From NCBI GenBank assembly GCA_017506865.1, contig JAFCMP010000517.1, positions 496,001 through 560,000 of the forward strand: DNA of 64,000 bases, written 5' to 3'. The notes under the pieces were generated by a model that was not told where the DNA came from, did not search any database, and saw only the letters and a program-made list of their open reading frames with translations. Positions 682 through 37,201 of the stretch are shown one piece after another (the stretch's first letter is position 1; each line of letters begins with the position of its first letter). The position numbers were made by a program, and so were the translations under genes. The DNA comes from Tribonema minus (taxonomy: Eukaryota > Sar > Xanthophyceae > Tribonematales > Tribonemataceae).

Positions 682-3600
682 GACTGGAAGGATGGCGTGC
701 TGAGCATCATCATGCGCGGCATGTCCAAAAACTTCAGCGACCAGGGGTTCTACGAGTACCAGACGTACAAGTGGGTGGTCTTGGATGGCGACATCGACGC
801 GGTGTGGATCGAGTCCATGAACACTGTCATGGACGACAACAAGGTCAGTAAAGCTGGTACTGACCGCAGACTGGCCTGCAGAGTTGGTGCTTCGGTCGCA
901 CCTGTAGGTATGTATGTATGCATTTTTTAATGTAGCCTCAAATGAAGGCATATCAGCTTGAGGCTGCAGTCACAGCAGAGCTCAAAGCATCCCTTGCACC
1001 AAAAGCGGGCAGCATTCGCAAGTGGTCATTTTGTGCCTGCCATGTGTGAAGCGCTGCAAGGAGGGCTGGAAAAATCAAGCAGGAGGAAGCGGTTGTATAG
1101 TGACATTCAACGGAAACCAACCTTGGCACTTCAAGTGTCACTTAAAGTGTCACTTCAAGTATGATTTGAAGGCGATTTAAAAGTCACCGTGCGTCTGTGT
1201 TCCTGGTCACACTACAACAGTAATCTCTACTCAAGTGCAGTGTGTGCAAGATCGCGCCAGAAGACATGTGTCAAAACCAAGCTATCCCAAGTCACGCCCA
1301 CAAAATTACATTGGTGCCATTTGTGTTTACCTAGTGCATATCCAAGGAGCATACACCAAGACTCAGGGTCTGCTGCGGCATGCCTACATACCCCTGCTGT
1401 TACCGTACGCTTCAGTCCTCAACGCCTGCCCTATATCTTTGCACGCGCCCGCAGGTGCTGACGCTGGTCTCCAACAAGTGCATGTACCGCACTGCTGCTG
1501 CTACCGTACACTCCGAACCTCAACGCCTGCCCCTAGTCCGCCAACCCTGCGCGCAGGTGCTGTCGCTGGTGTCCAATAAGTGCATGTACCCCTCTGCTGC
1601 TGCGGCATGTGCGCTTTAACCCTCAACGCCTGCCCCTATTCCGCCTCACCTGCGCGCAGGTGCTGACGTTGGTGTCAAACGAGCGCGTGCCGCTGAGCGA
1701 CGCCATGCGCATGGTCTTTGAGATCAACTCCCTCAAGAACGCCACGCCCGCCACTGTCTCGCGTGCGGGCATCCTCTTCATCAATGAGTCCGACGTCGGC
1801 TGGCGCCCCTTCGTGGAGAGCTGGGCCGCCAAGCGCGAGGACGCCGCGGAACGCGCCGCGCTCCTGGGACTGTTCTCCAAGTACGTTGACGCCACCAGCA
1901 TGCTCGTGCGCAAGGGCTACAAGGAGGTGACGCCGCTGCGCGTCCTCAACAAGGTCTGCACGATCGTGTACCTCCTGGAGGGGCTGCTAGAGGGGGTAGC
2001 GCCGGAGTCCAAGGGGGCCCCCGACCTGCTGGAGAACCTCTTTGTCTTTGCGCTGTGCTGGGCGTTCGGGGGGCCCATGGTCGTGGACAAGGCCGCGGAC
2101 TACCGGCGCAAGTTCTCGGAGGAGCTCTGCAGCACGTTCCCCTTTGCCGCGTCGCACTTCCCCAAGGACGCCACGGTCTTCGACTGCTTCTTCGACCCCG
2201 CCGCCAACGCCTTTGCGAGCTGGGCCACCAAGGTTCCCCCCTACGTCGCGGTGCCCATAGGCACGGGCGCGGGGGAGACCCCCTTCAGTCAGCTGAGCGT
2301 TGCCACGACCGACACGGTGCGGCTCAGCACGCTCATGGACCTGCTGGTGCGGCGCGGCCGCTTCATGATGCTGGTGGGAACCGCGGGCACCGGCAAGACG
2401 AGCATCATCAAGAACTACCTCGGGGGGCTCGACAAGGACGCCGACGGCCTGCTCAGCGTCAACATCAACATGAGCTACTACAGCGACTCCGCCGCGCTGC
2501 AGCAGGAGCTCGAACTTCACATCGACAAGCGCTCCGGGCGGCGCTTCGGCCCGCCCGCCACCAAGCGCATGGTGTACTTTGTGGACGACGTGAACCTGCC
2601 CTACGTGGAGACGTACGGCACGCAGAATGCCATCGCGCTGCTCACGCAGCTGGTCGGCTACGGCACCATTTTCGACAGGACGGACCTCGGCTTCCGCAAG
2701 GAGATTGTGGACGTGCAGTTTGTCAGCGCCATGAACCCCACCGCAGGTGAGCGCTGATGCGGCGTGCGGGTGTTGTTGCATCTGGCGCAGTGGCGTGGTC
2801 AACTGGTGACGCGCCATTTGCATTTGAGCATGAGATGCAGTGTGCGACGCCTGAGCTTGCTGCAAACTTCAGTTTGAATGCCATTGTGCACTGATGGTGC
2901 TATTGAAGCAGCTTCAGTTGCCATGTGCGCCAGCTACACAGAGTTGCTGCAGTGAAAAGGGGCGGTGTGATGCTTGCACAGTGCTTTGCAGAGTGGCCAA
3001 TCCGCAATCCCCCATTGTGCACCCTCCCAGCGACTTCCCCCCTTGTACACACATACCTCACCCCCAAATCGCTTCCGTCTCCTCCCCCCCCCCCGCCCGC
3101 AGGGTCCTTTGAGATCTGCGAGCGCCTCCAGCGCCACTTTGCCACCTTCTGCGCCAGCATGCCCTCCACCGCGGACCTGCGCGGCATCTACGGCTCCATC
3201 TTTGCGGGGCACCTCACGGGCTTCCCCGCCGCGGCCGCCGCCATGAGCGAGCGCATAGTGGACGCCTCCATCGCGCTGCACCGCCTCGTTGCCGAGAAAT
3301 TCCTGCCGAGCGCCGTCAAGTTCACGTACAACTGGAACATGCGTGAGCTGAGCAATGTGTTTGCGGGCATGTTGTTGGCGACGCCGGGCTCCGGCGGCGG
3401 CGCGCCGCTCGCGCTGGCGCGGCTGTGGCTGCACGAGTGCGAGCGCGTCTTCCGCGACCGCCTGCTCACCGAGGAGGACCTCGCGGGGTTTGACGTGATG
3501 CTACAGGACGTGTCCAAGAAGCACCTGACGGAGCTGCAGACTGGCATGTTCGAGCGCCCCGTGGTGTTTACGGACTTTGCGGGGAAGGCATCGGGCGGTG

Positions 3601-6600
3601 GCGGCGACTACTCTGCGGTGCCGTCCATCGCCAAGCTCAAGCAGGTGAGGGGTGCTGCTATTGTGTGTGGGGGGGGTGTTGGGTGTTATGGAGGGGGGGA
3701 GGGGGGCAGCAGCAGTGCTCTGCGGTTGAGAAGCGCTGCCACTGTGCCCACAGAGTTGTAATCGAGGTACGAGCACGTGCAGCATGCAATCACCGCCGGT
3801 GTGTGCGCGGGCAGGCACAAGTACTTGTTGAAGTTGGTCGAGCAAGCGCCAGCAGCATGAGCAATGTGGAGCGTCACAGGCTCACTTCACAATAGCGTAC
3901 ACTACTTCCACATTGTGCACGATACACGTCACTCACCACACTGCAACGCGCGCACGCGTTCTCACCCAGGTCCTGGACGGCAAGCTCCCTACTTTCAAAA
4001 TACAGTGTTTGCTACTAACCCTAACCCTAAACCCTGAGCACAACACACTTACCCTGAAAAACTGCAATTTGCACGCATCCTCACCCAGGTCTTGGACGAC
4101 AAGCTCCCTACGTCAATACAGTGTTTGCTACTCTCAAATTTTAATCACAATGCTCTTCCGCTCAAGAATTGCAATGCGCGCGCGCATTCGCGCCAGGTTC
4201 TGGTTGGCAAAATACAGTGTTTGCCACTATCATATTTACACAACACACGACACTGAATAATTGCAATTCGCACGTACATTCTCAACCCAGGTCCTCGATG
4301 GCAAGCTCCAGGAGTACAACGAGTCCAACGCCATGATGGACCTCGTCCTGTTTGAGCAAGCCATGGAGCACGTGACGCGCATCTGTCGCATCATAGGGCG
4401 CCCATCCGGCAACGCCATGCTCATAGGCGTCGGCGGCAGCGGCAAGCAGTCGCTCAGCAGGCTGTCGGCCTTCATCTGCGGCTTCGACGTGCGCCAGCTG
4501 GCGGTGACGGCCAGCTTCAAGGTGCGTGCTTTGTGAGGTTGTTGTTGAAGTTGCACACTGGTGATGTGCAATTTGCCTTTACTCTGCATTTGCTTTTGCT
4601 CTGCGGCAACCAAGTATCCGGCAGTCGCGCTCATTCTTCATCCATCATGACCTTTTTTCAAAAGCGACGTCAAGGCAGAATGGTGCTCGGCCTCCTTGTG
4701 CGGTGGCGTTATTTCATGACGGAGCCGCTGATGACCATATTAAGCATCATAGCGACATGCAAGGCCACCTGCCCCAGCGGGTATGTAGGTGCGTCACGCG
4801 TGCAATGCCTGTGTGCTGCAGTGGTAACTTAAGTCAAAAGAGGCCCTGTTTGGTACCATTGCCAGCATCAGGATCACAATGTAAGATGACATGCATCGTA
4901 GACTGGTTGGTGACAACGTTTTTTAAACGCAGCACAGCGGCGCAATGCAGACAGTATCATCTTCATGAAGAAAGGTCCATGTGCTCAACAGGGATCACAC
5001 AGTTGTGCATGCCGCCGGCATGCTGCAGCTGTGATTTGAGCTTATCACACGCGCAATGTCGGTCGGTCATGAAATCGACGGTGCAAGCCCCGAAGCAGGC
5101 CTGTACAACATCATAATCTTTTCAACTTTAGGCGCACTGTGAAACTTGGCCAAACGTACCTGCAACAACCTGGGTGTACTGACCATTAACGCATTACGCG
5201 CACAATGTCCGCACATTGCCACGCCTGCCTCAGGTGGAGGACCTGAAGGAGGCCCTGCGCGAGATGTTCAGGACGGCAGGCGTCAAGGGCAACCCTCTCA
5301 TGCTCCTCATGACAGACGGCCAGATTGTGGACGACCACTTCCTTATTAGCATCAACGCGATCCTGGCCAACGGCTGGGTCAGCGACCTGTTTGCCAAGGA
5401 CGAGGTCGACCAGTTGCTTGGGGGCCTCAGGAATGAGGCCAAGGCGTGCGGCGTGCCCGACACGCCGGAGAGCATGATGGACTTCCTCGTGCAGCGTGTC
5501 AAGGTATGCTACATAAGCAGGGCTAGGGCTGTAGGGGTAGGTTGCGCGGTGTGCCAGACATGCGGGACAGCATGTACTCACTGCCCTGTGCAGTGCGTCG
5601 AGGTATATATGCTACATGGGTAGGGCTACTAGGGTTGTAGTTAGGGGTAGGTTGCGCAGCGTGCCGGGCATCCGGGACAGCATGCACTCCGGCATGCAGT
5701 GCATTAGGGTGTGATTTTCAAAGCAGGGCTTTAGGGTGAAGGGTAGGCTAGACAGGTCAGGGCTTCAAGATTGAGGTTATCATGGGTCAGGCGGGTGCGC
5801 GCCGTAGAACACTTTTGGATATCGTAGTGCAGCGTCAAAGGTGTGCTACATGTTGAGTTTTTTTACCATAAGGTAGACCTCAACCCTGATGGGCAAAGCT
5901 GTGTCGCTGACCGCAGTTGTGTGCAACACCAGTTCATGATGAGAAGTGGGGGACGCCCCCCCCCCCCCCCCCCCCCGCCCCCCCCCTCCCCTTCTCCCCT
6001 TCCCCGCCAGGCCAATCTGCACTCAGCTCAAATCCCATAATTGCCATGAAATCAGCACACGCGGCTCATCCTTGCACTCTCAGCAGCCACATTAACCCTG
6101 CCTTACCCCCCCCCCCCCGCCCCCCCCTATCTTCTTTGTCAGGCCAACCTGCACGTGGTGCTGTGCTTCAGCCCGGTGGGCGACGTGTTCCGCATACGCG
6201 CGCGCCGCTTCCCCGGGCTCATCAACTGCACCACCATTGACTTCTTCCACCCGTGGCCGCGCGAGGCGCTCATCTCTGTGGCCAGCCGCTTCTTGGCGGA
6301 TGTCGACCTCGGCGACGAGGTACTTTTTCACACTTCAAGTATACTTTGAAGTATACTTTGAAGTACTTTTCTGTATGTACTGGTGCACAACACATTAAGT
6401 ATAGTGAGTATATAGCAGTTGCACTTTCTACATTGCAGCAATTTGCATTTGCTTGAATTTCAGTGGACGAGGTGCACAACACTAATGAGTACTTCGAAGT
6501 ATGATGAATATGAATATACATGCGTGCTTCAGGCAGACGTCGACGTCGGTGACAAGGTGAGTGATGCACGTATATATGTGTACATACATGCATACTTTTG

Positions 6601-9600
6601 ATGCATGTATTCTATTGATGTATACACTTCAAATTAAAACGTCTACACTTACGGTTTAGCTGTATGAGGTTGCAGTTTGTGTATGAGCGAGTGTGTCACG
6701 CATGCAAAGCGCTCATGGTTTAGAGGTAGGGTCAGGGCCAGCCCTAATCCTAGCTTGAAGGTAATGAAGAGAGACCGCTTCGCTCAAGAGGTCAGTGCAA
6801 TCTGTGCGGAGTCAGGCATGCAATAACCGCTCAGGCTGGCTCTGTCATTCATGCAAAGTCTAAAAGGCTGACTGCGCTGAATGCATGATTGTGTCTTTGG
6901 CTCAGCAATAAGGTCCATAGGAAGGGCAGTGTCATTGTCAGCACCACTGAAAGCACAACTATCAATGTTGCGAACCCAGGTTCACATGTGTAAACTCAGC
7001 TATCGCTACTTGCCCACTGCAGGATCTTGAGTTGACGCAGGCACGTCATTGGCATGGTGATCTCACTAAGGGTTAGGGTTAGCATACCCCTAGCCCCTAG
7101 CTTTAATTAAAACTTACAGATCACTGATGACTATAACGAATGGCCATCATTGTCAATAACATAAGTGGCATCTCACCGCTCATCACGGCCACTGCTCGCT
7201 TGTCACCGCAGGAGACCAAGACGTCTCTAGCGCTGCACATGGCCGAAGAGCACCTTAGCGTCACGCAGACCAGCAAGGACTACTACGATACGCAGCGCCG
7301 ATACAACTACGTCACGCCCAAGTCCTATTTGGAGCTTATTGGCTTCTACAAGTTCCTGCTGGACCAGAAACGATCGGAGGTGCAGCGCCAGATTGACCGC
7401 CTGGACGTCGGCCTGAGCACGCTGCGCAAGACGGCCGCCGACGTCGCGGAACTTCAGGTAGGCGACGCACAACAGTTATTGTTGCAGTTACTGGTCTTGC
7501 CGGAGCCGGTTTTGTTTTGAGATAGTTTTGATTCCCCCAATTTCTTCCTTTTTGTAAGGTCATACTTGAATGCTTCTATCACATGCTGCGCAAGACGGCC
7601 GCCGACGTCGCGGAACTCCAGGTGGGTAACGCACCACGGCTGTTGCTGTTGCAGTTGATGGACTGGGCCCTTGGATTGATGATTGAACAATTATGTTCCC
7701 CACAAGTTCGCTTTGACATGAGTTTAAACTCAAAATATTGTACGCTGCGCAAGACACAGAACTGCATATGGGTGACGCACCGCGGGTGTTGCACTCTGCG
7801 CACGGGTGTTGCACTCTGCGCATGGGTTGTTGGCTGCGAGCGCAAGTACCCTCACCTCTCACCGCTACCTCCTCTTGCTGCGGCACAATAATAAGCACAC
7901 GATCTGATCCCAATACCCATCCCACACCCACCGCAACTCTGCCCCCCCTCACCTGTCAGGTGGACCTCAAGCACACCATGGTCAAGGTGGAGGAGAAGAA
8001 GGCCGCCACCGACGAACTCCTCGTAGAGATGGGCGTGCAACGTGAAGACGCAGAGCGTCAGCGCGCAGCAGCTAGCATAGAGGCGGAGAAGGCTGCCAGT
8101 GCTAGCGCAAGCGCGTCGCGCATTGAGAAGGAGGCGGAGACCGAACTGAGCGCTGCTGAACCCGCCATGAAGGCCGCCGCCGCGGCGGTGGACTGCCTGT
8201 CCAAGAGCATGCTCACGGAGCTCAAGTCGCTGCCCAAGCCGCCGCAGGTACGCTGCGCGATGTGTACTGCTCCAGTGTAGTGTTGTGCGAAGGGACGTGC
8301 GGGAAGCAGGGGTTGCTGCGACGTGTGCGCAGCTGTGTGGCGGCAACGCACACAATGCCGCTGAGGCCACCACGGGCGCTGCAACCGCAGGTTGCGTATT
8401 TGCCAGATCAATGATGACTTGCTTGCACAGATCACGGCTTGCGCTACGAAAACTGCGAGAAGAACAGTACACTCGATGAAGGTGGGCGTGCTTGTGTGCT
8501 GTTTTGGCATCTTTAAAGAGGCTAATAAGCAGCCTTGACTGAGCATAGATTGACAAGCTTCACAGGAGCTGTCTGCTGTCATGGAAGGGGCTACACATGG
8601 CACTTTCATAGGAACAGTCCTTTTGAAGCCGTATCTCATTCCTTACGCACTCCTTTGCAAAGCGGCTGGTCTCCGCATCAGCAGCTGCATCAATTGCACT
8701 CACAATTGCAGAGCACTGCCACTGCCCTAGCACTGGTGCTGAGCGCTGCTGCACTGATGCCACACTTCTCCCTGCGTGCCACACAGGGCGTGGACAAGGT
8801 CACCAAGGCAGTGCTCATCCTGGTGGAGAAGGAGTTCAAGACGCACACGTGGGACCGCGCCAAGAAGATGATGGCCAACGTCGACGCCTTCAAGAACTCG
8901 CTCGTCGCCTTCCGCGGCGAAGACATCACTGAGAACGAAATTGCCAAGGTGAGCGGACAGTCATTGTGGTGGTGCCGTGAGGCTACAGGTTCGCTGCATT
9001 TTGTTTTCTGGTGCCTGATGTTGTACAGTGCTGTATTTGAATGTCAGCTTGTTGTTCGCAAGAGCGTGCAGCGCCGCTGCGGCAGCTACCGCTCTCTTCA
9101 CCAGAGGTCTCATGCATACACTACACCATGCTGCATGCCACGTGTATGTAAGCACACACTACTGGACACGTACACGCCATTCAGATCAATACGCAGGCAT
9201 CACAGACAAACTCACAGTACCCTTGACCCCCCCTCTCCCCCCCCCCAATACCCTGACACGTCAGGTGGAGCCCATCCTGAGCGACCCCGAGTTCACGGTT
9301 GAGAACATGAAGGCCAAGTCCGCCGCCGCCGCCAACCTCTGCTCGTGGGTCATCTCCATCTACACCTTCAACCGCATCTACGTCAAGGTCAAGCCGCTCA
9401 TGGACTCCCTCGAGTCCGCGCGCGCGTCCAAGGCCGCCGCCGACGAATCTCTGCGAATCTCTACCGAGGCCGTGGCGGGCGTCGAAGCGCGGCTCAAGCA
9501 ACTTGAAGACCGTTTCACCGAGGCCACTGAAGACAAGGCGCGAGTGGAGGCGGAGGCTGCCGCGTGTCTCGCGCGGTTGGGCCTTGCGGAGAGACTCGTG

Positions 9601-12600
9601 GGGGGGCTGTCGAGCGAGAACGAGCGCTGGGGGCGCGAGATTGAGAAGCTCAAGGACAATGCGACGACGCTGGTTGGCGACTGCATGATCGCCGCGGGGT
9701 TCGTGTCGTACGTGGGCGCCTTCGACTCGGACAACAGGTCAGAGCGATGGCAGAGGCTTGGCAGCAGTGAGAAAAAGACGTGTAGCAGCAGTGGTAGTGG
9801 TGGTGGTGGTGGTAGTGGCACAATGCTGCATATGCGGAATACAGTCCCAAAATGTGTTGGTACCGAGTCCTTGAAAGTTCACGCAAAGCTACACTTGCCA
9901 GTACCATCTGCAATTTGCGAAGTATGCAAGTACGCTCTGCTACGGCCGTTGCTTCACTCGAGCAGCATGTCATGTCATTAAGCCAAAGCCACTGCAACGC
10001 AAAATGCCAGTTTCTGCCATGATGCACAGCGGCGGCTGCCATCACGCGCACCTGACCCCCTCCCCATACCACCCCCAAACCTCAATTCTAATCCTAACCC
10101 TAATCCCCCCCTGCCCACTCCCATGCCCCCTTCAGAAACGCGCTGTGGCGCGGTATCTGGATGCCCGATTTGGAGGCCAAGCGTATCCCCCTAACTCCTG
10201 GCGTGGATCCCTTGGCGCTGCTCACCAACGACGGCAACAACGCGCGCATGATCAGCGAGGGCCTGCCCGCAGACCGCATCTCCATTGAGAACGGCTCCAT
10301 CATCACGTCCTGCAAGCGCTGGCCGCTCATCATCGACCCGCAGGCGCAGGTGAGATGATATAGGCGATAGCGCTTCAAGTGTTAGATTACAATCAAATGA
10401 TAAGTGAACGTAAGTTATGAGTGAATGTGGTCTTGCGGCGTGGCACCAGCCATTAGCGTATTCCACATGCTGACTGTAGGTTGCAGGCAAGCTTGTCGTA
10501 AGCTGAAGCAGGTGATACTGTCAATCACACTGTCATGGAGTGTGCTCATGGGCGTCATCACGATCAACCGCAGCACGTGAGTCATATGTGACTCACATGG
10601 GCTGGTCCACGCTTCTGCAGATGAGACAGCTTTATATGTACCTGATCTTGTAAGCCTTGAGCACATGTCACTTTCGGACTGTAGGCGCGCGCAGTTGTGC
10701 ACGGCGCGCTCTTCACACTTCACCAGTGCACTCTCTGCAACTGCCCATCCCCACTTGCTTGCTGCTGCTAAGACATGTCACTTCGTGGCGCCAATAGCAG
10801 TCGCGCAGTAAAGGTGCTCAGTTGGGGCTAGGGTTTGGTTAGCTCTAACCCTACATGTACCTCTCTAATCTAGCCCCTGCTTGGCCCCAGTCCTTCCCCT
10901 ACCCCTAAGTGCAGGGCATGAAATGCCTGTGGCAGTGTGAGAAGAAGAGCGCTAGGTTAGGCCTGACCTTACATGTACCCCTCTCAGATGTAGCCCTAGT
11001 CTGACCCCAGCCCTAACTCTGACCCCATGCACAGGGCATCAAGTGGCTGTGGCGGCGCAAATAGAAGAGCGCCAACTTAAAACCTAACCCTACACATACC
11101 CCCCTCAGCTAGCCCTACATAGACTGACCCCGCCCCTAACCCTCACCCCACGCGCAGGGCATCAAGTGGCTGCGGCGGCGCGAAGAGAAGGCCGGCGCGG
11201 GCCTGGCCGTGGTGCAGCTCACGCAGCGCAACTGGCTGCGCGCCGTGGAATCTGCCATCACTAACGGCTCCACGCTCATCATTGAGAACATTGGCGAGGA
11301 CATTGACGCCACGCTGGAGCCCGTGCTCGCGCGCGCCATCTACAAGAAGGGGCGCGCCCTGTACCTGAAGCTCGCAGGTGAGTTGGGGTAGGCTGGTATG
11401 CTGCTGATTACAGGTGGCTGGTACATGCCCTGTCTGTGGCGTTGCAGCCGCCAGCTACTGCAGCTACCTGCGGCGATAGTGGGTAGGCATGCTGGTGTCT
11501 GATATACAAACGTACCCTGCATTTCAGCTGGCACCATATCTGTGATGGTAGTGGGCAGGCTCGTCTGCTAATTGATATTGACACAGGGTTAGTGGTATTG
11601 ACACATGCTCTGTTGCGGCGTTGCAGCCCGCAGCATATCTCCGTTAGTAGCAGGTGCGCGAGGCAGGGCGCTCGCAAGTGACACAATAGCTAGGCTTGCC
11701 TAATTGTGACCATTTCAAAAGAAGGCGCAGTGCCAGAGCGCGATGTGCCACTTGTGAAAGTGTAGCATGGCCGTGTGGCACTGGCCCTGAATACAATGGC
11801 TGGACAATGGCAGTTGCGTTCATTGTGCGTCCTCAGTGACATTGTCATTGCGGCGTGTACGTGGCTGCTGAGCACATATGCGTGTACGTAGGCCAGCACG
11901 CGTGCTTACTCACATGACATATTGATGTCATACCATCCGTGCCATGCGCGCATGATCGCCTCCCCCTCTTGCTTGAAACTGGACCTTAAAGCCCAATTGA
12001 TCAACTGGAGCCAAAGCGAGCACCCTTGATTGAAGCCACTTGCATCAATCCTCAAGTCATCATGTTCACTCACTCTCACTCCGTGACGCCGCCGCAGGCG
12101 AGGAGGTGGAATACGACCCCGGCTTTCAACTGTACCTGCAGACCAAGCTCAGCAACCCGCACTACAAGCCCGAGATCGCCGCGCAGTGCACCCTCATCAA
12201 CTTCATTGCCACAGAGCGTGGTCTTGAAGATCAACTGCTTGCGCGAGTGGTGGGGGTCGAGAGGCCCGAGCTGGAGAAGCAGGCGCAGGAGCTGCAGCTT
12301 GCGTTCCAGACGTACAAGATGCAGCTGGTGCAGCTGGAGGACGACCTATTGGAGCGTCTTGCCAATGCGCCTGAAGACATCCTGTCTGACGTGCCGCTCA
12401 TCGAGGTGAGATGGTGATGCTCATCAACGACATGGCCATGATCAATGCGCCTGAGGAATGTAGGATGATGATCATCAATAACATGGTGATGCTCAACGCG
12501 CCCGAGGACATCCTGTCTGATGTGCTGCTCATCGAGGTGCGACACGGACGTATTGTGATGATGCTCATCGATAACATGGTCATAGTGATGATGCATTGTG

Positions 12601-20141: not shown

Positions 20142-20709
20142 AGCTAGCGTGGTTCACTTGACTTTGTAACCGCCAAACCGGTACGCTTGACGAAACCGAT
20201 ACGGTTGATGCCGACTCGACATTCGTGGCTCAATTTTACGAGAAATGTATGTGTACCACCAATGCAACATGCCTTGAAAATTACATCTGTCGTGAAGCAT
20301 CAAGCTGCTCAAACACAGCATTCGATGGGCCAATCTTGTCTCGCCACCACCGCTAGGCTCTCGAAGGATCGGATTCGGCTGATGCAGGATCTTTTTTAGG
20401 ATGTGACATGGTACACGACACCCGCAGCGTTAGGACCCAAAATCTGCATTTAATTGGCCATGAATGCACACAAGCAGTACTCCCAACAAAGATTGACTGA
20501 CGTCAACAGTAGCAGCAAGAAAGTGCCATTGCATTGCGAGGGCGCTCTGCTGTGATCTGGTCATTAATGCTGGGGGCGTCAGCACCTCATAGGTGTTTAT
20601 CATGCACACGCAGCAACATCTACAAGTCCTGCACTTCTGTACTGCACTTTTGTACTGCGATAAAAAACCCCAGCCCTGCCGCATCTGCCCCAGCAGAGGG
20701 CACCAATCG
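20142..20709. other. Spacer between HBS1 and RSP3
   Basis: Holds the HBS1 3' UTR and the RSP3 upstream region. Just before the RSP3 start there is an imperfect repeat of the word cgaaaccg/aaccggtacg. No TATA box or coding exon is recognised. Confidence 0.5.
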
Positions 20710-23700: not shown

Positions 23701-26700
23701 GCCGATACCATTTCACTGCTGATTGTGTGCTGTTGCACTTGGTAGGGTGAAAGCTGAACTGAATGAAGCATGTGTGCCGCATGGCATTCAGCAATTTGGC
23801 GCAGCAACGGTGGTGTTCAGTACGGCCTGGAAAGTGCTTTTGATTGAATTCTCGCTCAGGGCGCGAAAAAGCCCAGATGATTGATGTCAAGCTTGCTACC
23901 AGGACCTATGTGTATCATGGGACAGGTCCATGTCAGCGGCTGTTCGTGCGTGCACAGTTTGATGCAGCATTGTTGAAGCTGAAGCCATGCAGCGACTTTG
24001 GCTACTGCGCTGCAGACTGGTGCCCCGGCATGACGTTCATGGTGGCACTGCTCGGCGCGCGGCATCACGGGCATGCAGTATTGTGGAGAGTGACTAAGAC
24101 CAATCAAATCCCCGCAATGCGCAGTGTTTCGTGAGTTGCTGGCACGTTCACGGCATTCACTTTGTTCAAGTGAGCAGGTACAAGGGGCATGCAGTGGGGT
24201 GCCAGCGGGTGTGCACTCCACGCACCTGGTGCAGAGAGATTGAAGTTTACAGTCTTGTACAGTGTAACAACTCAAAGGTGTCTCAATGCGCACTCAAATG
24301 TACTACCGGCTCACGCTTGAAAGCTGCAATATTACTGTGGCAAAAACTTCAACGGCTTCAGTAACTGCTCTTCACAACGCTCAAAACCATGAAGACTTCA
24401 CGACAAACACGGGGACCTGGCTTTGAAAATGCGCAGCATGAAAAAAAGACAGCACACGCATTTCTAAAAGCAGATGTACGCTCAGGGGGCGAGTATAGAA
24501 CCAGATGCCGGTGCTCATACACAACCAGGTCATATAAGTATTATCCAGGCTCTTATCAGGCTCTGCGTCAAAGCTGACACTTGCCTCAATGCAAAAATTG
24601 TTGATGCCACATGATCCACATCGTTGCAGGGGTGCACATGACTGACAGAGCACTGCTGAGCACTGCTGTCCCGTAACCAACGAAGCAAACTTACTTGTTC
24701 ATCAAACAATCTCATTTCCTTGTACTGCTTGTGGTTGAGCTGTACCGAGGGCTCCCATACAACCCACCTTTGCAGAAATCAACAAAAGTAGAGAATCCTC
24801 ATGCTCACGCATACATGCATGCATACATGCGTGTGAGAACCCCGCACCACTTGATTGCCAAGAGTCGGAGCAACTTGTCCCAGCAAAAATTGATGCTCTC
24901 CTGAACAGCAAGACTTGCGCCTTCGTCTGCCTGCTGGACCAAAGCATAATTCGCCCCTTCCCAGGCACAAACTTCAGGAGTTGACGTTCCTGTACTGGAG
25001 GTTCCTTCGTCTCCCCGCGGGACTCAAAGCTTGACTCGAGTTTACGCCTGTCGAAACAACATGCTTGTAGGATTTCTATATGCATGCAATCATACATCAT
25101 CACACTCAGTGCAGGCCGTTCAGTGCCGAGCGCAACCGCCTTGGTAATAGGTCAACACTGCGCATAGGCAGGAAGAACACGTGAAATCTCTTCACGCACC
25201 TTGACCAGCAGTGCGTGCTCCTTCGTCTGCCCGCTGGACTCAAAGCACGACTCAAACTCGCCCGGTGTGGCTGGCACAACCAGCACTGCCACATCTGCTG
25301 CACACGCGCCGGATATCATCTTGGGGATGAAGTCCCTGCAATATACCATAAATGTGGCACATGCACACCATTGAGGAGACGGAGTGCTGCAATTGGAGTG
25401 CTCACGCGCTTCTTCGCGCCTCAAGTGAAAGCATAAACGCAGAGCAGCGATGCGATGCTCTCAAAGACTCGGTATGGCATCATGCCTGTGACACTGCGCG
25501 TGGGTGTCATGATAATGTTGACAAGGCCCCAGTTACAGCTCATGCCCCCACATGAAGCACACTTGCAGGCGTTTGCGACCTGTACAAGCGATCAGCTGAG
25601 CGTTGATGCATGAGGTGCGCGGACAGTCAGCCAAGCTGCTCAGTGCTAAAGCGGACAGAACCAAAACGCATCTGATGCACCGGCTGACGCGCCGTGCCAC
25701 ATGTGTTGTTGTGCCAACATGTTGTCGTGCCGACACGCATCCCCTTGCGTCACTTCTTCAGGCATACATGTGTGATACATGCTGCACATGGCATAATCAT
25801 ACACTGGAAATAAACACCGCAAACAGCAATGCTGCACAAGCCTCAAGCCACAAAGCCCTGAGGCGAGCGGGGAGACAACGGTTTGCGCGAGCGTTGAAGT
25901 TGGGTGTATGCTAAATCCGAACTTGATCAAAGTCACAGTGCTCAGCTTGCCTGTGCCCTGGCGCGTCCAAGAGCGTGATGAGCTTGGTCTCCGTGACAAC
26001 GTGTTTTTGTGCGACGTCTATGGTCACGCCATGGGCACGCTCCTGCCATACATACAGACAGCACAACAGGAAAAGTGAAAATTTGGTGAAAGATGAGAAG
26101 AGTACGTTTGAAATGAATGGGGAATAATGTGCAGCGCCGCTGTGGATCAATGAGCAAGGGGCACTCGCCAGGAAGTAGACAATCAGCTGTTTGTAAATGT
26201 ATACTTCAGTCAGTCCACGAGCAGCAGCTCTTGAACAGTGGCAAGATGTATGCTTTGAGCGTTCATGCCAAAGTTAACTACTTTAGTTGTAGAAAAGGAG
26301 GGATTTCAGGCATCAGTAGGTGTCAATTGTCTGTGGTTGGAGACTTCACAAACAGAACACAACATCACAGCAGATGTGTTGCAGCACGCCATATCGAATT
26401 ATGGTGCTCCATGAGCATTTTACTCTATATCAGTCACATCAACCGTATGACCGCAGCACTGCAAGGTTCGCCTTGTCCCCTTGAAACTTTCAAGGGCGCA
26501 CATGGCATCAACCGTTGCTGACTTGCTGATTCAGACCCCTGCTTTGACACCTCCCAAAATACAGATCCAACTGGCCGTTGAGAAATATTTGGCAGAGCAA
26601 TACATGACACAAGCCACTGCAAGCGCACAAGCAAGAGCCTACAAGTACATCACCAGCAGCGGTTTGAAGTTCAAGTGTGCCTGACCCACACTGCTCAGCA

Positions 26701-29700
26701 CACATCATACTTGTATGACTCGTTTTAAAAAATGTGTTGTAATGTCAGCCATCTAGCCATGACTTGTGATGAGGCGTGCGGCTTAGGTGCAGCTGCCAAA
26801 CCAGCGCTGGTCCTGGTAAGATATTTGCGCACTTACAGTTGCTAGAGATATTACAGACATTCGTATCAGATTAGTTGTTGTCTGCGTGCGCATTGCAAAA
26901 TGGAGCGCATCACCATGCAGGCGAGGCCATGTGCCCGAGTGACTTGTATACACACAAGTGAGTCTTTGAAGTAACTACACAGTACGCATACTACGTGAGC
27001 AAGTAACTACAGTAGTATGCAGGACACGTAAGTAACGAGAGCAAGTCTCATTCATGCGCGGCAAGGGTGTCACATCAGCTTACTCTTTGTGTTCAGCTTT
27101 CAGGCTTACCTACCATACTTGCGTATGGTACAAATGGCAATCAGCACGTCGGGGAGGTGGGATGCTGTGTGGAGCTCTTGAGTTTTTGCTGAGCACACGG
27201 TGCGAGCAGTAAACTTCCCTCAACCACAATGGTGATGAACTTTAAAAGGTTCAAAACTCCACAGCGCATTGACGAGCCAATCATTAATAGCTTCATGTAA
27301 GGACTGGCATTAACATCCATGCACGTGTTTTGAAAAGTAGGCCAACATCATCAGTTTAGGTGGCACAACTCACCTCTTCGTCTTCATCCATGATCCAAGC
27401 AAGGTGCGAACAGTGAACTTCCCTCAATCAAACTGGCAATGCGCTTTTTGATGTTAATGTTAACCAAACATGCGCATTGAAAAGCCTGCATATGAACACT
27501 GGCAGTAACATTATTTACATGCTTCCAAGAGTAACCAAACATAATCAGGTGGGGCAGCTGACCTCTTCGTCTTCGTCCATGATCCAAGCCAGGTAAAAGG
27601 ATGCCTTCCCTTGCTCACGTGCCTCCCTCTCATGCTTGTGCAAGACGCGCTGCAGCAGGAGCAGTGCACACCAACACACAGCAGCGCTCAGCAAGCAAGT
27701 CCATCATCGTGAGCAATGTGATGATGCACAAGTATGATGCTCGACAAGACACACAAACAGCCAGGCACACTCTGTCATCAGGTGGGATCAGGAACTGAGA
27801 TTTCAACATGTCACAAATGGGTACTCGTCAGCTGTACTACTACGTAAGTCTCAGGCAGCATGTGTAGAGCTCAACACATAAGCCGGCATGATAGCGATTT
27901 GGTGTCAGATGCTGCCCGAATATCAAGGACCCACGACCAGCCTTGCTGTACTGTGGCAATGCTTTTCAGAAGCCATGGCGTGCATGCTGGCTGACCTAGG
28001 GTCAGCACTGGTTCTTGCTGAACACCGCGCACAGACAGTAGAAGGTCACAAATCTGGCTCAACATGTAACCAAACCAAATCAATGAAGCAGTGACGCCGC
28101 AACTCTAGAAAAAAAACAGCGTTTGTGTGCCTTCTGCCGTTGTTTGCTGTGAACTTCTTCTTTCAGGTGCTGCAATTGCGATGCATCACCATGGTGATCA
28201 CAGACTGCTTTACGGATTCATGCATGAATGCATTACCTGTGATACGTGTCCCATTTTGACGAGCACCTGCCCCATGAGTGTGCTCTTGCCAGCGTCCACA
28301 TGGCCCACCACAACCATGCTCAACCGTTCTGCATCATCAAAAACACAAAGCCATGGCGTGCACGATTTAAGTTCGACGTCGGTTGGAGAAGAGAGGTGCT
28401 TCCAGCGTCGTGTAGTACTGGCACAACCTCAACGTCAACACAAAACTTCAACATGGACAAAGACTTGCAGACGAAAGATGTGGTAACGCTGCTCGGCCAG
28501 TCTGCCTGAGCAGGAGTGGAAGAGCCGCATGTTGTAGGGACCAAGAAAATTCATTTTTTTTTCATGATTCCCGCCGGCCATGCTGTCGACAGTGTGCGGC
28601 CTGCTGGCGATGCTGATTATCTGACCGCCTTGCCAGTGATGCATTAATGCTGTACTTTGCTTATCATGTACTTCGAAGTATGTTTACATCACATCATACA
28701 GTTCAAGCTGCCAAGGACTGACTCAACATCAGTTCAGAATGTTGATAATTTGAGTGAGGTAAGAACTACCGTAGGGTTAGTGTACGCCGCCTCTATTTCA
28801 AGGACTCAGAATGCTGATGAAAGTCCCAATGGGCAGCAAAGATTTCGGTGCATTGTCATCCGCCATAAACTAAGTCTCTCTGAAGGTGACATGTTGTGTC
28901 CATGCAACGGGCAGCTCCTCGCACATGCCCTAATGACCACATTGTCGAAGTTCAACACAGACGTTGTCTCAACTCAAGACTGCTCCTGACGTCGCGTGCA
29001 AGCATTTTCAGATAACACTTGTCAGCACATCAAGTATACCTACCAACGCTGCTACCCTATTGCCGAAGCTATCAGCGCCACCCCGCTTTGTGCCGATGAG
29101 CACATGGGTCAAACTTCCTCGCAGACATTTGGGTTAGGACTGGTGGGTGTTCTGTGACTTCATGTTCTACGTACTGCTGGCAAAGAGTACAATGTGAATG
29201 CGCCAGCACACGGACTTGTACATACCAGACGGTGTATTGGCTGCACTCGGCTCTGTATGGCCCAGGCCTCAGCGCTAACTAGATGTGGCTTTGGCGCCGT
29301 TGGTGACTTGATTGTCACGACACACAACCACTTGACGCCCTACAAACCACTCGACGTCCTACAAGTCATGCTCATATGCAAAACTTATTGAGCACCACCA
29401 AAGCGCACATCACACATCAATTTGTCAGGAGCCCTGCGTTAGCCTAACCCTAACCCCCATTAGCCTGTCTGATGTCCGTGCTTGAGACAACAGCTTGGGT
29501 AATTCTTAGTGCCCTCACGGAACGTCCAGCGTTGATAGACAAAGAGGGTTACCTACCCTATAAATTAAGCCTGATGACACCGCTGGACGAAGTAAACTGC
29601 TCAGAAGAATGTTGCGACTCTCTTGGCCTGTTGCTAACCCTGCAGACATCTCAATCCGTTCCGATGATGGCCTACAATTACGCTTACCAATGTTGACGTC

Positions 29701-30755
29701 ATGCACTGTTTGCAACACAGCCAAGGAATGGCACCATGGCAAACGACTCATGACTAAGGACTCATGTCAATGATTCATGGTGGCCAACGAGTGACTCACG
29801 CTTGGCACCCGCAGGCTCCGCCTCCTCCACCTCCTCCCTCCCCTCATCGTCCTCCGCTATCGCGGCGTCCATCGCAGCGGAGTCCCTCCCAGGCGAAGTG
29901 CGCACTTGCTCCTCAAACCTCAAGCCGCTGCGCCCCGCAGGCGCAGGCGACGACACAGTGCTAGAAGGCCTGCTGTCAGCGCCTGTCCCCCCCGCCGCTG
30001 CTGCCGCTGCCGCGCCGTCCGCCCCCTTCTTTGCCTTCCCCGCAGTCCCCTTCTTGGCACTGCCCTTGGGCGTTGCCACTGGCGTGCCGTAGCCAGCAGG
30101 TCCCGCATGCGCCTGCGTCGCTGGTGCGGCTTTGGGAGACTTTACTTTTTCAGCTGCGGCGGGGATTACGACGGGCACGAGGCCGCCACGCGAGCCGATG
30201 GCAGCCGCTGACATGATTGCTGGCGCTGCTGCTTGTTGCTGCGCAGCAGGGGTCCCTGCCGGCACTGCATCGGCGCTGCTGATGAGTATCGCCAGCGCCA
30301 TATCCACATCATAGCCGCTGCTTTGAGCAGCCTCTACCATTTGCGTGTGGCTATATGTGGCGGTGGTGCTGTCAGCAGCGGCACTTGCTGCGAGGCGCGA
30401 CTGCAAGTCGGCGACTACGACTTCAGCCAGATCATCGACCACTTCCGCTTCCGTAGCCGCCTGCTCCGCTGCAGTGTCCATTTCGTACGCATCGTCGGCT
30501 GTGTACAGGCGGCCTGCCTCGTAGCCGTCGTCGTAGTCCTCATCGTAGTACTGCAGTGCAGCAGCATCAAGAGCAGACACCGCATATGCATGAACACATA
30601 AGGGCGAGTGAGTAGCTCAACGTGAACGCGACGAAGATTGCATCCGAGCACAGTCATGCGTACACCTGACACAGAACCTTTTAAGAGAGACTGTTGTCAC
30701 TCACATCGTCGTCATAGCTGTAGTTCCTGTTGCGGAAGGCCCTGTGCCGCGACAT
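20710..30755 (-). CDS. HBS1: HBS1, eRF3/eEF1A-like ribosome-rescue GTPase
   Basis: Translational GTPase that delivers Pelota/Dom34 to stalled ribosomes in no-go and non-stop decay, acting in the cytosol. Ten exons (30705-30755, 29800-30550, 28237-28328, 27563-27649, 25951-26042, 25200-25335, 23318-23455, 22432-22586, 21775-22092, 20710-20974) join in frame to 694 residues. The N-terminus [17 protein letters not shown] is the HBS1 N-domain opening, and a Tyr/Asp-rich stretch and a Gly/Ala/Ser/Lys linker follow. GTPase motifs: GHVDAGKS 276-283, switch-I GVTIDV 332-337, DAPGH 353-357, NKLD 415-418, SGL 456-458. Beta-barrel domains II and III follow, with RPRCVPSG and LSRPI near the end. Two introns have GC donors (after 25951 and 23318). 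Exons 4 and 6 have decayed neighbours in their following introns. Confidence 0.95.
21447..21460. repeat. Palindromic TACTTCGAAGTA motif
   Basis: Perfect palindrome atacttcgaagtat in an HBS1 intron. Relatives of the form (T/A)ACTT(C)RAAGTA(T) recur at about 1126-1170, 6335-6365, 6492-6504, 21737-21765, 23514-23524, 23580-23606, 28668-28682, 37247-37262, 43720-43734 and 58428-58438, in introns and spacers only. Confidence 0.7.
24895..25060 (-). repeat. Exon echoes of HBS1 exon 6
   Basis: The 3' part of exon 6 ([15 protein letters not shown], about 25200-25250) recurs twice in the following intron: at about 24999-25045 (reads [12 protein letters not shown]) and, weaker, at 24905-24950. Neither copy has a consensus donor at the expected place, so they look dead. 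Confidence 0.75.
27195..27560 (-). repeat. Exon echoes of HBS1 exon 4
   Basis: The end of exon 4 coding [10 protein letters not shown] (27563-27592) is repeated at 27374-27403, 189 bp away, with the same ten residues and an intact GTGAGT donor. The surrounding intron (actggca, taacatt, aggtggcacaact) is copied too. The word cagtgaacttccctcaatc at about 27410 recurs at about 27208, so a third, older unit lacks the exon part. Confidence 0.85.
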
Positions 30756-31695: not shown

Positions 31696-31729
31696 ATGTT
31701 CCGCATGGCTTCGATCTCCTGCAAGCCAT

Positions 31730-33794
31730 GGTATATCCTGTCACTATCAGTTGTTGCTTCTTGTCAATGTCAAATACCACGGTTTGTCAAGCCTCGCCAT
31801 ATACTCAAGAGCCGACGAGAGACGTGCATTCATTCCTTGCACTGTGCAGTTCAATGATGCTTGGCTTCACGTCAACGACTCGCTGCTGGGCGGAGATGAC
31901 ATAGCGGAGCAATTCATCAACGAGAACACACAGGTATGCTTCAGCAGCTGTTACGCTCGACACCTACTGATTAGTTATGTAACGTGAAGGACTCCTCGGA
32001 GGCGCCCCCGGGGGGCGGGAGCTGTACTATGCAACATGCACAAAGCAGTGCATCGCCATTTCAACCGCAGTCTGAAAATTAGCGTTGTGCATGCATCAAT
32101 TTGGCACTATCAGTAGACTGATGATTTTTAGCGCAAGGCGTGCATGCAAAAGCTGCAGCTCTTGATTGCGTACTCATAGACCACTTGCTCGCAGAGCGAC
32201 ACGCCAAAAACTGTGAGCACAAGCAGCAGCAGACATAACAGCACACATCCTTTACATCCCCGGATCTAGTACTCAGCACTGTGCCGTCACAGCAGTGAAA
32301 GCTCCAAATCTGAGAAATTTAGAGTAGCCTGGTGCATTGACGTGAACCTGACAAAAATTCAAAACCCAGAGCCTTCAAGAAACTGCCGCCAGAATCAGAG
32401 GAACATCATGCATTTTGGCAGATTCATGATAAGCTTGCTGAGAGCAGGACAGCAGGAGGAAAGTCAGCGGCCCTCACATGTGAATGGCCGAGAACTGTTG
32501 CTTGATGCTGCAGTCAAGGACTCCCAGCCCCCTGCAGCAGTGCTTGCGCTAGCACAGCATGCAAGTCGTTGCACCAGCCAGACAGGCGATGCGTACCCGT
32601 GCCTTGCCCTACCACCTGAGACGTCATAGCTGTTTGTCAGCACAATGCACACATCCATTCCATTCTGCCTACTGTTGCGGTTCTGCCCCTGCAGCTCGGT
32701 CTCATCAACGCTTTGCTCCTGACCATGGCGTGGAGCTCCTTCTACGGCGTCATGGACATGGATGATGCGTGGCGTGATGTCAACATCGAAACGCACGTCT
32801 GGATCGACCTCCAGATTGTGCTGTTTGGCATTGCGTGCATGGGTTTTGGCTTTGCTACGGTCGGCTCTGTGTTCTACCTACTCGCGGCGAACGAGGCAGG
32901 CACTGCCAGCAAAGTGCACTCGTTACAGGCGCACTTCGGCCACTGGCTCAGCGCACCCTGGTACTTCTTCTTCACGGGGCTCTTCGGCTGGGGTTCCGGG
33001 TTTTATGTACAAGGTGAGATGCTTACCTCTAGCCCTCAAGTTTGAGGAGCTTCATGTGCAAACATAATGAGCTCCTGTTGTTGGCCCAGTGCACAAGCAT
33101 CTTTGCTGAAACATCTACTTCCACTAACGCATTACTTGCACGTTTGCCACACCGCAATCCGACAGGTTGCGTAGCCGCGCGCACCACCGCCGCCATGGTG
33201 GTGTTCCTGGTCATCATGCTCAGCGGCACGGCCATCTTCATATGGTCCATGCGCGAGTGCGTCAGCGGCGTCTTCACCGTGCAGCGCATCAGCGAGGACC
33301 ACAGGCCCATCACGCACACGCTCGGCCACATCCAGGCGCAGTTCCGCCAGTACGCCGCGGAGGTGGGCGCCGAAAACATATCGCACGACGAGTTCAGGCT
33401 GTTTCTGGTGAGGCCAGTAGGACACCTCAACTACTGGCCCGGGCTGTCTGCCGTGTGCCAAGCGCGCGTCGACAGGGTGTTCGAAGAGGAGCTCCAAAAA
33501 GCGGTTGAAACTTCGAGCGCCGCGCCCATTACGCTCCGCCTCGCTGAAATCCGACTTCAATTTGTCAAGTACTCCAAGCAGGTCGGGAGCGACAACATCA
33601 GGCGGGCAGCGTTTACGGACCACTTGGCCAGGCCTGCTGAGCCGGGTGGCGATGTTGTGTGCCTGTCGGAGGTGTGTGTCGCACGCGCCAACAAGGTGTT
33701 TGACGAGGAACTGCAGAAGGTGGTAGATGGTGATGATGATGATTCAAGTGAGCTGAGCGTTGTCACACCGCTCATGCTCACGCCCACCGACTAG
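31730..33794 (+). CDS. Multi-pass membrane protein of unknown family
   Basis: I do not recognise the family. Three exons join in frame: one ending at 31933, then 32695-33013 and 33166-33794. The 5' end is unresolved: the frame of the first exon is open from 31631 but has no clear ATG or acceptor, while a nearby ATG at 31696 (signal-like MFRMASISCKPW) lies in another frame. Four hydrophobic segments are visible: INALLLTMAWSSF, the stretch from WIDLQIVLFGIACMGF on, YFFFTGLFGWGSGF, and MVVFLVIMLSGTAIF. The long soluble tail holds two diverged copies (33315-33509 and 33528-33728) of a module of about 70 residues ending FEEELQKAV or FDEELQKVV. The end is Asp/Ser-rich. It diverges from HBS1. Confidence 0.7.
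33315..33728 (+). repeat. In-frame tandem duplication, about 73 codons
   Basis: Two tandem coding units in the tail of the membrane protein. Aligned words: FRQYAAEVGAENI with FVKYSKQVGSDNI, RVDRVFEEELQKAV with RANKVFDEELQKVV. The copies are well diverged at DNA level but similar in pattern, so the protein repeat is probably old and functional. Confidence 0.8.
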
Positions 33795-34940: not shown

Positions 34941-37201
34941 TTAAAAATCATCCATTTCCTCTTCGAAACCACTGGAGGGCTTCTTCATGACATCCAGGAA
35001 TGGCACATGGACAAATACCACCCGCCCCAGGCACTGGTACCCCTGCGGCTCCTGAACAAGGGCACATCAAGGGCACACAGGGCAAGCAGGCGTTAGCTCA
35101 GCACAGCGGGGCTTACCAGCAATCCAAGATTTGGAGGCTGATGATCCGATCCAAGCCACTACACCCAGATTTTCACCTCATTCTGCGTCGGCGCTAACCC
35201 TAACCCTGCGTCGGCGCATCTTGCTGCCATTTGCCACTGTGTGCTGGCAGAGCCTTTGACTTTCTAGGCAGTGCACGGAGTACTCTGAGAGTGATTCATG
35301 TCTGATGCCTGATCACATGTTGCGCAGCGCCAAAAACAGAACGTTCATTGCCGCTGCAGCTGACTGCTGGCGTCATGGTGCTTGACCAATGCAATACAGT
35401 GGTAGATCACAACGACAGTAGTTCAACATGCACCTCATTTCTGTCCTGTCGCATGCGCATTGATAGTCACATCAGGCATACACAGTCAGGTCATGTGGCA
35501 GTGCTTGGCACAGGCTGAGACTGTGCGACATTCATCATGTCGCGGAATTGAAGTAGCCCGGCATCAAGTTGCATTGAAAACCGCTACTTGGAACATACCA
35601 GCTAATCAGCACGCCTTCAGCCAGTCCTCTCAAACCACAGATAAATGTTACATGTAGGTACTGCTGCAGGCTCACCTGTTTGAACCACCTGATGATGACG
35701 CTCTTGTCCGGTGCCTGCCACACAAAGAACTTGCCCTCCTGGAAGTCCACCTCTGCACGGTCCACCACCGCCAGCACTTCCGTCGTCTGTGAAGACACCG
35801 CACGCACACAACGCAGGTCATGATCAGGTGAGATGCGCGCAACAACAAGTGTACTCAATTTCTGTTTACTGAAGAATAAGCATCTGCATATTGCCAAATG
35901 CAGGCACCAACGACGGCCGTTACTTTCTTTGCTCTGCAGAACGATGCCGGTCTCAACACCTTTATGTGCTGCGCTAAACAGCTGTACTTAAACCCTGACA
36001 ATGACCTCCAGGGCCAGCACCCGGTACACGCGAGCTCTCCTCTCAGCAACACATGTAGATGTATGCTATAAGTAACACACTGTATGTATGTATGCACAAG
36101 CACTCACTGCGTCCTGCGGCAGCGAGATGCCCAACGCGTCACTGGCTGCCACGATGATGACAGGTCCATCACGGTACGGTATAACATACTTTATGTACGT
36201 ACTGTGTATGCATGCACTCACCGCGTCCTGCGGCAGCGATATCCCCAGCGAGTCACTGGCTGCCACGATGATGACAGGGTCAATCAAGTCCGTCACGGTG
36301 TCACCGCCAGGCAGTGCCACCGTCCCCATCTGCGGCCCCTCAGGGTCCGTAAAGTCGTACTGCCATGTACCCTGCTCCGCAGGCTCTCCGCTCGTGGGCG
36401 CCGCGATATCCTGCAAGCAAGCGCGCCAACATGCCAAAGAAAAATCGACTAAATCACATATTGGGCCAAGGGATAGGCATTGCTGATAGTACGTGTGGAT
36501 GAGTTAGGGCTTATAGGTTGAGGGAGGTCGAGAAGCGGCCTAACAGGGGTGCATACATGTGGATGTACAAGTAGGTTAGTATGGCGGGTGCACATGCTGC
36601 GACGAACCGCATCACATTGGCGCCAGTGCACACATGCACGTGCAATTCATGACGTCGGCGGTTCAAACAGAAGTGCGTACATCCGCACCGCACGAATGAA
36701 GACTTGGGCAATTGCCGAACAAGCTCACCTCAGCTGTGAGGCCAGGGTAGGCTCCAGCGATGCATACGGTGCGCGGATAGTGCTCCCGGGCTCCTATCTG
36801 TACAATTGGCAGGAAGCGGCTGCCGGTACCGTGCAGCCCTGTCTGCTCCATCTGAGCTACCATCTGCAAGCAGCATCACATGTTGACAACGGGAAGGGCT
36901 TGATCAACATGACACTCCATTTGCGCTTATGAAGTGAGAGATCGAATCTGCGGGAAGCGGCCAATGTCTTAGCATCATGATGATACGATACTTGATTTCT
37001 AGGACGCGCCGTATGGCGAACCCGAAGTTAGTCAGGCGTAACATCGTATCACAGCACGCCAAAACTTACCTGGGTTGATCTGCTGCCGCACGTTGCAGTT
37101 GCCTGCCTGGCTTGCCGACATGCTCTTAAGGCAGGAGCTGGAACGAAGCCGAGAGCGGCATCGACGTAAAGCAGAGAGAACAGAAATGTCAACCGTATCA
37201 T
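34941..37201 (-). CDS. Predicted plastid-targeted protein, function unknown
   Basis: Five exons (37070-37201, 36729-36863, 36222-36410, 35676-35786, 34941-35051) join in phase 0 throughout to 225 residues. The N-terminus MIRLTFLFSLLYVDAALG is signal-peptide-like and is followed by FVPAP and an Arg/Ala/Thr/Ser-rich, acid-free stretch (about 24-44). That is the layout of bipartite presequences in algae with red-derived complex plastids, where Phe follows the cleavage site. The mature part is soluble, with LHGTGSRFLPI near 54, TWQYDFTDPEGPQMGTV near 108, DPVIIVAASDSLGISLP and a C-terminal GRVVFVHVPFLDV ending in an acidic tail. I cannot name the family; it could be a photosynthesis assembly factor. 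Exon 3 has a well-preserved echo in the next intron. Confidence 0.75.
36100..36180 (-). repeat. Exon echo in the plastid-protein gene
   Basis: The last ~57 bases of the exon at 36222-36410 (DPVIIVAASDSLGISLPQDA) are copied 114 bp into the following intron at about 36108-36167, reading GPVIIVAASDALGISLPQDA with a GTGAGT donor. Eighteen of 20 residues are unchanged. The two donors sit in near-identical context. Confidence 0.9.

Follow-up and report, generated by a model that had tools for sequence, protein, structure and literature searches.

What are decaying copies of an exon's own edge, together with its splice site, doing inside the adjoining intron? The question is raised by 64,000 nucleotides of the genome of the xanthophyte Tribonema minus (contig JAFCMP010000517.1, positions 496,001 to 560,000; about 55% GC), a stretch referred to below as the window. 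Copies of this kind, here called echoes, were found in the introns of three of its genes, namely the 3' part of a gene for an outer-arm dynein beta heavy chain, a gene taken to be HBS1, encoding a translation GTPase, and a gene for a Raf1-like Rubisco assembly chaperone. An earlier note on this DNA had listed nine such sites in the dynein, in HBS1 and in a plastid protein. The echoes proved to be real and the sites to be more numerous than that, with 12 accepted exon edges in 11 of the 30 introns (60 edges) of these three curated genes, 7 on the donor and 5 on the acceptor side, so that both sides are affected, as had been claimed. In our judgement the best explanation, and a probable one, is recurrent tandem duplication across splice junctions, with the copies decaying neutrally inside the introns.

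The evidence comes from three kinds of comparison. In a self-BLAST of the window, the strong local direct repeats sit at exon edges and few are found elsewhere. A tile scan, in which each tile of 60 bases was compared with the following 420 bases and a score of at least 36 was counted as strong, recovered the same copies; among high-complexity tiles (n = 2,878) this score was reached 67 times by direct, once by inverted and never by distant comparisons, the corresponding numbers for the complete set (n = 3,176) being 81, 8, and 0. Finally, an exon-only test set 50 exon bases against the adjoining intron, with 200 length-matched samples from other introns as control. It covered 74 edges of 37 introns, including 7 introns of two further gene models, and 13 of the 74 edges exceeded all 200 control samples where about 0.37 would be expected. 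Scores of at least 30 were obtained for 8/74 edges in direct orientation and for 0/74 with the reverse complement. For eleven of the 12 edges that were accepted, exon sequence alone suffices for significance; the acceptor of dynein intron 13, with 7 exon bases, fails this test and was accepted on self-BLAST and the tile scan. Two other edges passed the test and were not counted, the acceptor of HBS1 intron 8, where the match extends over just 14 bases, and one acceptor in a PHD-finger-like gene, where it extends over 16.

Each copied unit comprises 7-65 bp of exon, the remainder being the splice site and intron sequence, and the alignments indicate that the intron portions are duplicated too. 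There are 2-4 copies per site, the original included, and the true copy is the one attached to the exon body, as geometry demands. Nearest copies lie at periods of about 92-238 bp, where mostly 95-140 bp, with 189 and about 240 bp at the extremes, had been given earlier, and farther copies occur at lag 300 in HBS1 intron 6 and at lag 337 in dynein intron 5. Regarding the acceptor side, all five accepted edges are found in the dynein gene (plus strand). Intron 1 (1394-1690) has 2 copies with a period of 101-103, the echo exon starts being at 1455 and 1557 and the true start at 1660. In intron 3 (3918-4309), 3 copies with periods of about 92-119 place echoed exon starts at 3970, 4089, and 4197, against a true start at 4291; in intron 11 (10837-11190), 2 copies with a period of 118-123 place them at 10915 and 11035, against 11158. 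The short acceptor echo of intron 13 (12879-13063, lag 136) puts an echo exon start at 12921, and that of intron 14 (13846-14045, lag 141-143) is weaker and has lost its AG.

On the donor side, the true donor of dynein intron 5 (5448-5851) at 5504 is followed by echo donors at 5603 and 5709 (period 98-110) and by a weaker one at 5841. Dynein intron 6 (6288-6558, lag 238) carries an echo donor GTGAGT at 6557 which outscores the true donor; intron 7 (7418-7792) has echoes at lags of 164 and 146, the second without GT, and intron 13 (12360-12583, lag 131) has an echo donor at 12537, so that this intron bears echoes on both sides. The remaining donor echoes lie on the minus strand. Both echoes of HBS1 intron 6 (24902-25253, lags 216 and 300) have lost the GT, HBS1 intron 4 (27196-27594, lag 189-204) has an echo donor GTGAGT at 27373, again outscoring the true donor, and the echo donor of intron 3 of the chaperone-like gene (36073-36286, lag 109-114) retains an intact GT. 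A further tandem repeat, in dynein intron 12 (11423-11634, plus strand, lag 180), is internal to its intron and is the sole strong array not reaching an exon; it is possibly a decayed donor echo. This tandem anatomy bears out the view that existing introns have been enlarged by repeated duplication of junction segments.

Conventional repeat annotation would overlook most of this. With its default threshold, Tandem Repeats Finder reports just one array at its period (1450-1680), and most arrays would thus escape such annotation; the same result, together with the 2-4 copies per site, led us to reject minisatellite arrays as a description. Between 37 and 64 kb, no array with a score of at least 36 and a lag of at least 60 was found among high-complexity tiles, weaker arrays, both non-coding, being present there at 41758/42052 (score 29) and 59785/59858 (score 33).

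If duplications fall anywhere, why should their copies be found at exon edges? Eleven strong arrays (score at least 36, lag at least 60) were counted, leaving out low-complexity tiles, repeats with lag below 60 (7783, 12415, 34787, and 58480) and all scores below 36, among which are the accepted but weaker echoes of dynein introns 6 and 14 and coding matches, e.g., at 9314, 33453, and 44352. Ten of the eleven span an exon-intron junction. Were tolerated duplications placed uniformly, at least 10 crossing arrays would be expected with a probability of 1.5e-3 within their own introns, of 5.6e-4 when all introns of the three genes are open to them, and of 9.3e-6 when the whole window is. For the share of crossing arrays, a simulation including decay and the same detection predicts 34-38% (P 1.4e-4 to 4.2e-4). 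When exon bases are masked, a score of at least 36 is kept by nine arrays, among them that of the dynein intron 13 donor, whose masked value of 46 may derive from a separate repeat of lag 51; the arrays of HBS1 intron 6 and of the chaperone-like intron 3 drop below 36. Of the nine that remain, 8 still cross the junction, and conservation of the exon copy therefore does not account for the bias.

Several points weigh against this reading. Beyond the three genes, the whole-window probability uses provisional, rough coding intervals. The score threshold was picked after the controls had been viewed, and arrays were merged manually. By our own arithmetic, the bias among the nine masked arrays has a P of about 9e-3 for own introns and about 3e-3 for all introns, and when the intron 13 acceptor is recounted as internal, the three probabilities above become 1.2e-2, 4.9e-3, and 1.5e-4, so that the bias is moderate either way. 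The exon share of the units (mean 27%) lies below the prediction of uniform placement (Kolmogorov-Smirnov P 0.0023), for which the simple model provides no explanation; selection may act against long copies of the exon, or the junction may attract a cluster of breakpoints. Moreover, the evidence base is one window and three genes, and the 7 modelled introns of the PHD-finger-like and enoyl-CoA-hydratase-like genes have zero accepted echoes. The pattern had been called pervasive, which holds within the three genes and not in these two. With all this considered, the preference for splice junctions in the three genes is significant though moderate.

The models of the three genes were curated by reading the sequence, and splicing was then tested computationally. 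The dynein gene (682-17519, plus strand), with 18 exons and 17 introns modelled in the window, splices into a single open frame of 2,324 amino acids, and one of its exons finds its best solved-structure match in an outer arm dynein beta heavy chain, presumably that of the ciliate Tetrahymena. HBS1 (20710-30755, minus strand; 10 exons and 9 introns) has a complete spliced open frame, and one exon matches EF-Tu domain 2 with a score below the Pfam cut-off. The gene for the Raf1-like chaperone (34941-37201, minus strand; 5 exons and 4 introns) likewise has a complete open frame and matches the Pfam family RuBisCo_chap_C (5.7e-16). The N-terminus of this protein (37070-37201, minus strand) is signal-peptide-like and ends in AALG-FVP, which we take to be a motif for complex-plastid targeting; this suggests that the protein is targeted to a complex plastid. 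Taken with the Raf1-like domain and the presumably ciliate match of the dynein, such an N-terminus on a plastid protein speaks for an alga with a plastid of that kind. Two chlorarachniophyte genomes, with GC contents of 27% and 45%, differ clearly in composition from the window (PMC12730881). Of the 30 introns, 27 are GT-AG and 3 are GC-AG (dynein intron 15 and HBS1 introns 5 and 7). Automated gene finding, for which the curated introns served to train the splice matrices, retrieved the introns of the dynein gene and added false mini-exons as well as false genes on the opposite strand, and the three main genes were therefore analyzed with the curated models only. The PHD-finger-like and enoyl-CoA-hydratase-like models are hand-edited output of the gene finder and provisional, the latter model probably being short of at least one exon. 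A gene for radial spoke protein 3 (18627-20153, minus strand; 1.3e-39) adjoins the dynein gene.

An independent view of the dynein exons is offered by a relative. When one dynein exon was used to scan for relatives, one eukaryotic contig was found among genome contigs, and a scan of viral contigs gave zero matches. On this contig, NYVR01000115.1, the dynein gene has no introns across a stretch of 7,140 bases, and its protein aligns to residues 60-2323 of the window dynein with 67.9% identity, covering 16 of the 17 junctions (intron 1 lies outside). No echo-sized insertion is present in the relative at any of the 16 junctions covered, the comparison being one of dynein only, which indicates that the dynein exon models are right and that echoes are not a normal part of the dynein family. 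With no intron at these junctions, the relative does not allow the introns themselves to be dated. The contig is filed under a Planctomycetota genome though its dynein gene is eukaryotic, and this is a contamination of that metagenome-assembled genome.

How have the copies changed since they arose? For copies of more than 14 bases, identity in the exon part runs from 95% down to 73%, in agreement with the graded series described earlier, and the echoes thus probably differ in age; that the process is ongoing is plausible. Pooled identity is 83% in the exon part and 77% in the intron part, values for which three of the echo coordinates are off by one or two bases and against which random stretches of the dynein region already reach 63% in gapped alignment. 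Over 596 aligned bases, with the exon side capped at 66 bases, 90 differences separate echoes from exons, 38 synonymous (42%) and 52 non-synonymous, two changes being stops. An echo drifting next to a constrained exon should have a synonymous share of about 40% by our own arithmetic, and a constrained echo would show mostly synonymous changes; there is therefore no sign of coding constraint on the echoes. The copied segment is in each case part of an exon and not a whole exon kept as coding, as would be found with tandem (mutually exclusive) exon duplication. To judge from the sequence, the echoes look like neutral debris.

GT or AG is retained in 15 of 19 echo copies, which is about the neutral expectation at such divergence (own arithmetic) and confirms that decoy sites stand beside true exons. 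In 6 of the 19 copies the echo scores at least as high as the true site, with matrices trained on the same 30 introns; examples are the donors of dynein intron 6 (12.6 vs. 6.1) and HBS1 intron 4 (12.3 vs. 9.9). The third copy of dynein intron 5, with 2 synonymous and 6 non-synonymous differences, an intact GT and a score of 9.4 vs. 9.0, was kept outside these counts, which would become 40 vs. 58 differences and 16/20 sites if it were added. The open frames imply that splicing uses the site next to the exon; if so, consensus strength alone would not determine which site is chosen.

Among other explanations, it can be argued that tandem duplication, a known general process, strikes all non-coding DNA alike, exon edges having been noticed by chance and because a conserved exon makes its copy more visible. 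The internal array of dynein intron 12 fits this idea, as do the two arrays that lose their strength once the exon is masked, and the potato gene discussed below likewise had an interior duplication beside a junction-crossing one (PMC4974935). However, the simulation that allows for loss of detection leaves the observed 10/11 crossing arrays far above its prediction, masking the exon leaves most of the crossing arrays in place, and high-complexity arrays of comparable score and lag are absent outside the three genes, so that we regard such scattered duplication as a possible but rather doubtful account. A different view is that the echoes serve a function, as alternative or poison exons, as decoys binding U1 or as recursive splice points. 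The retained and sometimes superior splice sites speak for it, and so does the echo 6533-6556 in dynein intron 6, which resembles an in-frame mini-exon of 24 nucleotides, preceded by an AG and ending at a donor of very high score, was adopted by the gene finder, and is, as far as sequence can tell, a possible case of exon birth. Yet the changes within echoes betray no coding constraint, the retention of GT and AG is what neutral decay would leave, and the relative's dynein has no counterpart at the 16 junctions covered (in dynein only); such a function seems improbable.

On another view the echoes would be remnants of the birth of these introns from tandemly duplicated AGGT-containing exon segments, the kind of event to which the earlier note had likened the enlargement of introns. 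Tandem duplication and AG/GT sites are indeed present, and the exons at two acceptor sites start with GT. The signature of this route is nevertheless missing, as similarity between upstream exon end and intron end exceeds the 95th percentile of mismatched pairs in 1/30 introns and that between downstream exon start and intron start also in 1/30, and the copied units include intron sequence, which together make this origin very unlikely. Introner-type transposons, or another family of dispersed repeats at splice sites, might be suspected from AG-G contexts and from short CCCTAA-like tracts common to the introns. However, the 30 introns are dissimilar, their best inter-intron score being 46 (dynein introns 13 and 15), self-BLAST places such a match (12992/14593) in telomere-like tracts, and the copies found are local and tandem. 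As the introns have no common family sequence beyond these short tracts, the arrays are not Introners, an explanation to which we attach next to no credence. As for the tracts themselves, a link of echoes to them was considered and dropped, tracts being present in echo-free introns too. CCCTAA/TTAGGG hexamers occur 20 times in the 19.4 kb of introns of the three genes, where base shuffling expects about 9.4, once in 18.6 kb of coding sequence and 9 times in 26.0 kb of other non-coding DNA. An artefact of assembly or sequencing, finally, would be expected to yield nearly identical copies. Those longer than 14 bases diverge by 5-27% in their exon part, and indels as well as partial, nested copies are present, which makes an artefact very improbable.

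The echoes can be set beside several known systems. Intron gain through tandem duplication of AGGT exon segments was reportedly proposed by Rogers in 1989 and is said to have been shown by Hellsten in 2011, a study cited in PMC4974935 and PMC3443670. It has in common with the present case the multiplication of splice-site-like sequence by tandem duplication, but the exon-to-intron similarity expected from it is absent here and the copied units already hold a junction and intron sequence. Work on internal gene duplications is said to concern new introns and coding repeats; such duplications also lie inside genes and may carry splice sites, whereas here decaying copies lie within existing introns. 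A review regards tandem genomic duplication as a demonstrated route of intron gain (PMC3443670). The closest precedent, and the only direct one for junction-crossing tandem duplication that searches of the open-access literature brought up, is an RdRp gene of potato, in which a tandem duplication spanning an intron-exon boundary produced a new intron and a second duplication, of 83 bp, lies within the first intron (Ma et al., 2016; PMC4974935). As in our case, the duplicated unit runs from the 3' part of an intron across the splice site into the beginning of the following exon, the splice signals being inherited (PMC4974935); units spanning a boundary together with its splice signals were found here at 12 edges. 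In contrast, the potato case concerns a single gene, in which the duplicate became a new spliced intron with added exonic sequence, as seen in RNA reads (PMC4974935), whereas many introns on both donor and acceptor sides are concerned here and the dynein protein has no extra exon relative to its intronless relative. The earlier statement that no named description exists was thus too strong, given this published case (PMC4974935). Introners (Gozashti et al., 2022; PMC9860276), dispersed transposable elements by which introns are shaped across whole genomes in certain lineages, differ in that our copies are local and tandem and the 30 introns are without a common family. Among the papers that searches of the open-access literature brought up, most of them not opened, none was seen to describe exon-edge copies of such density, and the coverage leaves out most subscription journals. 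What is new here is the density of echoes and the junction bias, in a process related to intron gain by tandem duplication.

Recurrent duplication across splice junctions can be pictured as follows. Segments of about 90-240 bp straddling an exon-intron junction would be duplicated in tandem, repeatedly, so that each site gains between one and three copies. That fused to the exon body would remain in use and the others would land within the intron, which is thereby lengthened; such duplications would be tolerated as splicing continues at the exon-proximal site. The extra copies would then decay neutrally and leave unused look-alike splice sites. The spliceosome, we infer, passes over the echoes, and the same degree of inference applies to the mechanism at the level of DNA, candidates being the fill-in repair of staggered breaks or paired nicks and replication template switching. 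The junction bias could reflect a mutational hotspot, or the survivorship of duplications which start in exons. The likely cause, tandem duplication, belongs to an ordinary class of mutation; its density in these three genes is unusual.

Two repeats of other kinds can be mentioned. The sequence 58480-58555, outside every modelled exon, holds two repeats of a 38-bp unit with a 97% match, and the open reading frame 33453-33727 contains a degenerate internal repeat with a lag of about 220, which may go back to an ancient duplication, in frame, of about 73 residues.

With regard to the wider meaning, the lengthening of introns without transposons is, to our knowledge, poorly understood. Echoes in about one third of the introns of some genes, of graded ages and on both sides of the intron, would amount to a time series of such a process, and decoys scoring at least as high as the true sites would make a natural experiment on splice-site choice. 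A bolder reading, which we consider unlikely, is that in this lineage the duplication process is bound to the splice junctions as such, be it by transcription, by RNA-DNA hybrids or by nicking specific to junctions, and is a main engine of intron growth that keeps feeding strong decoys into introns. In that case, proximity to the exon, or exon definition, would decide which sites are used, and not consensus strength. Should the junction bias hold genome-wide, it would suggest that the mutational process is linked to the structure of genes.

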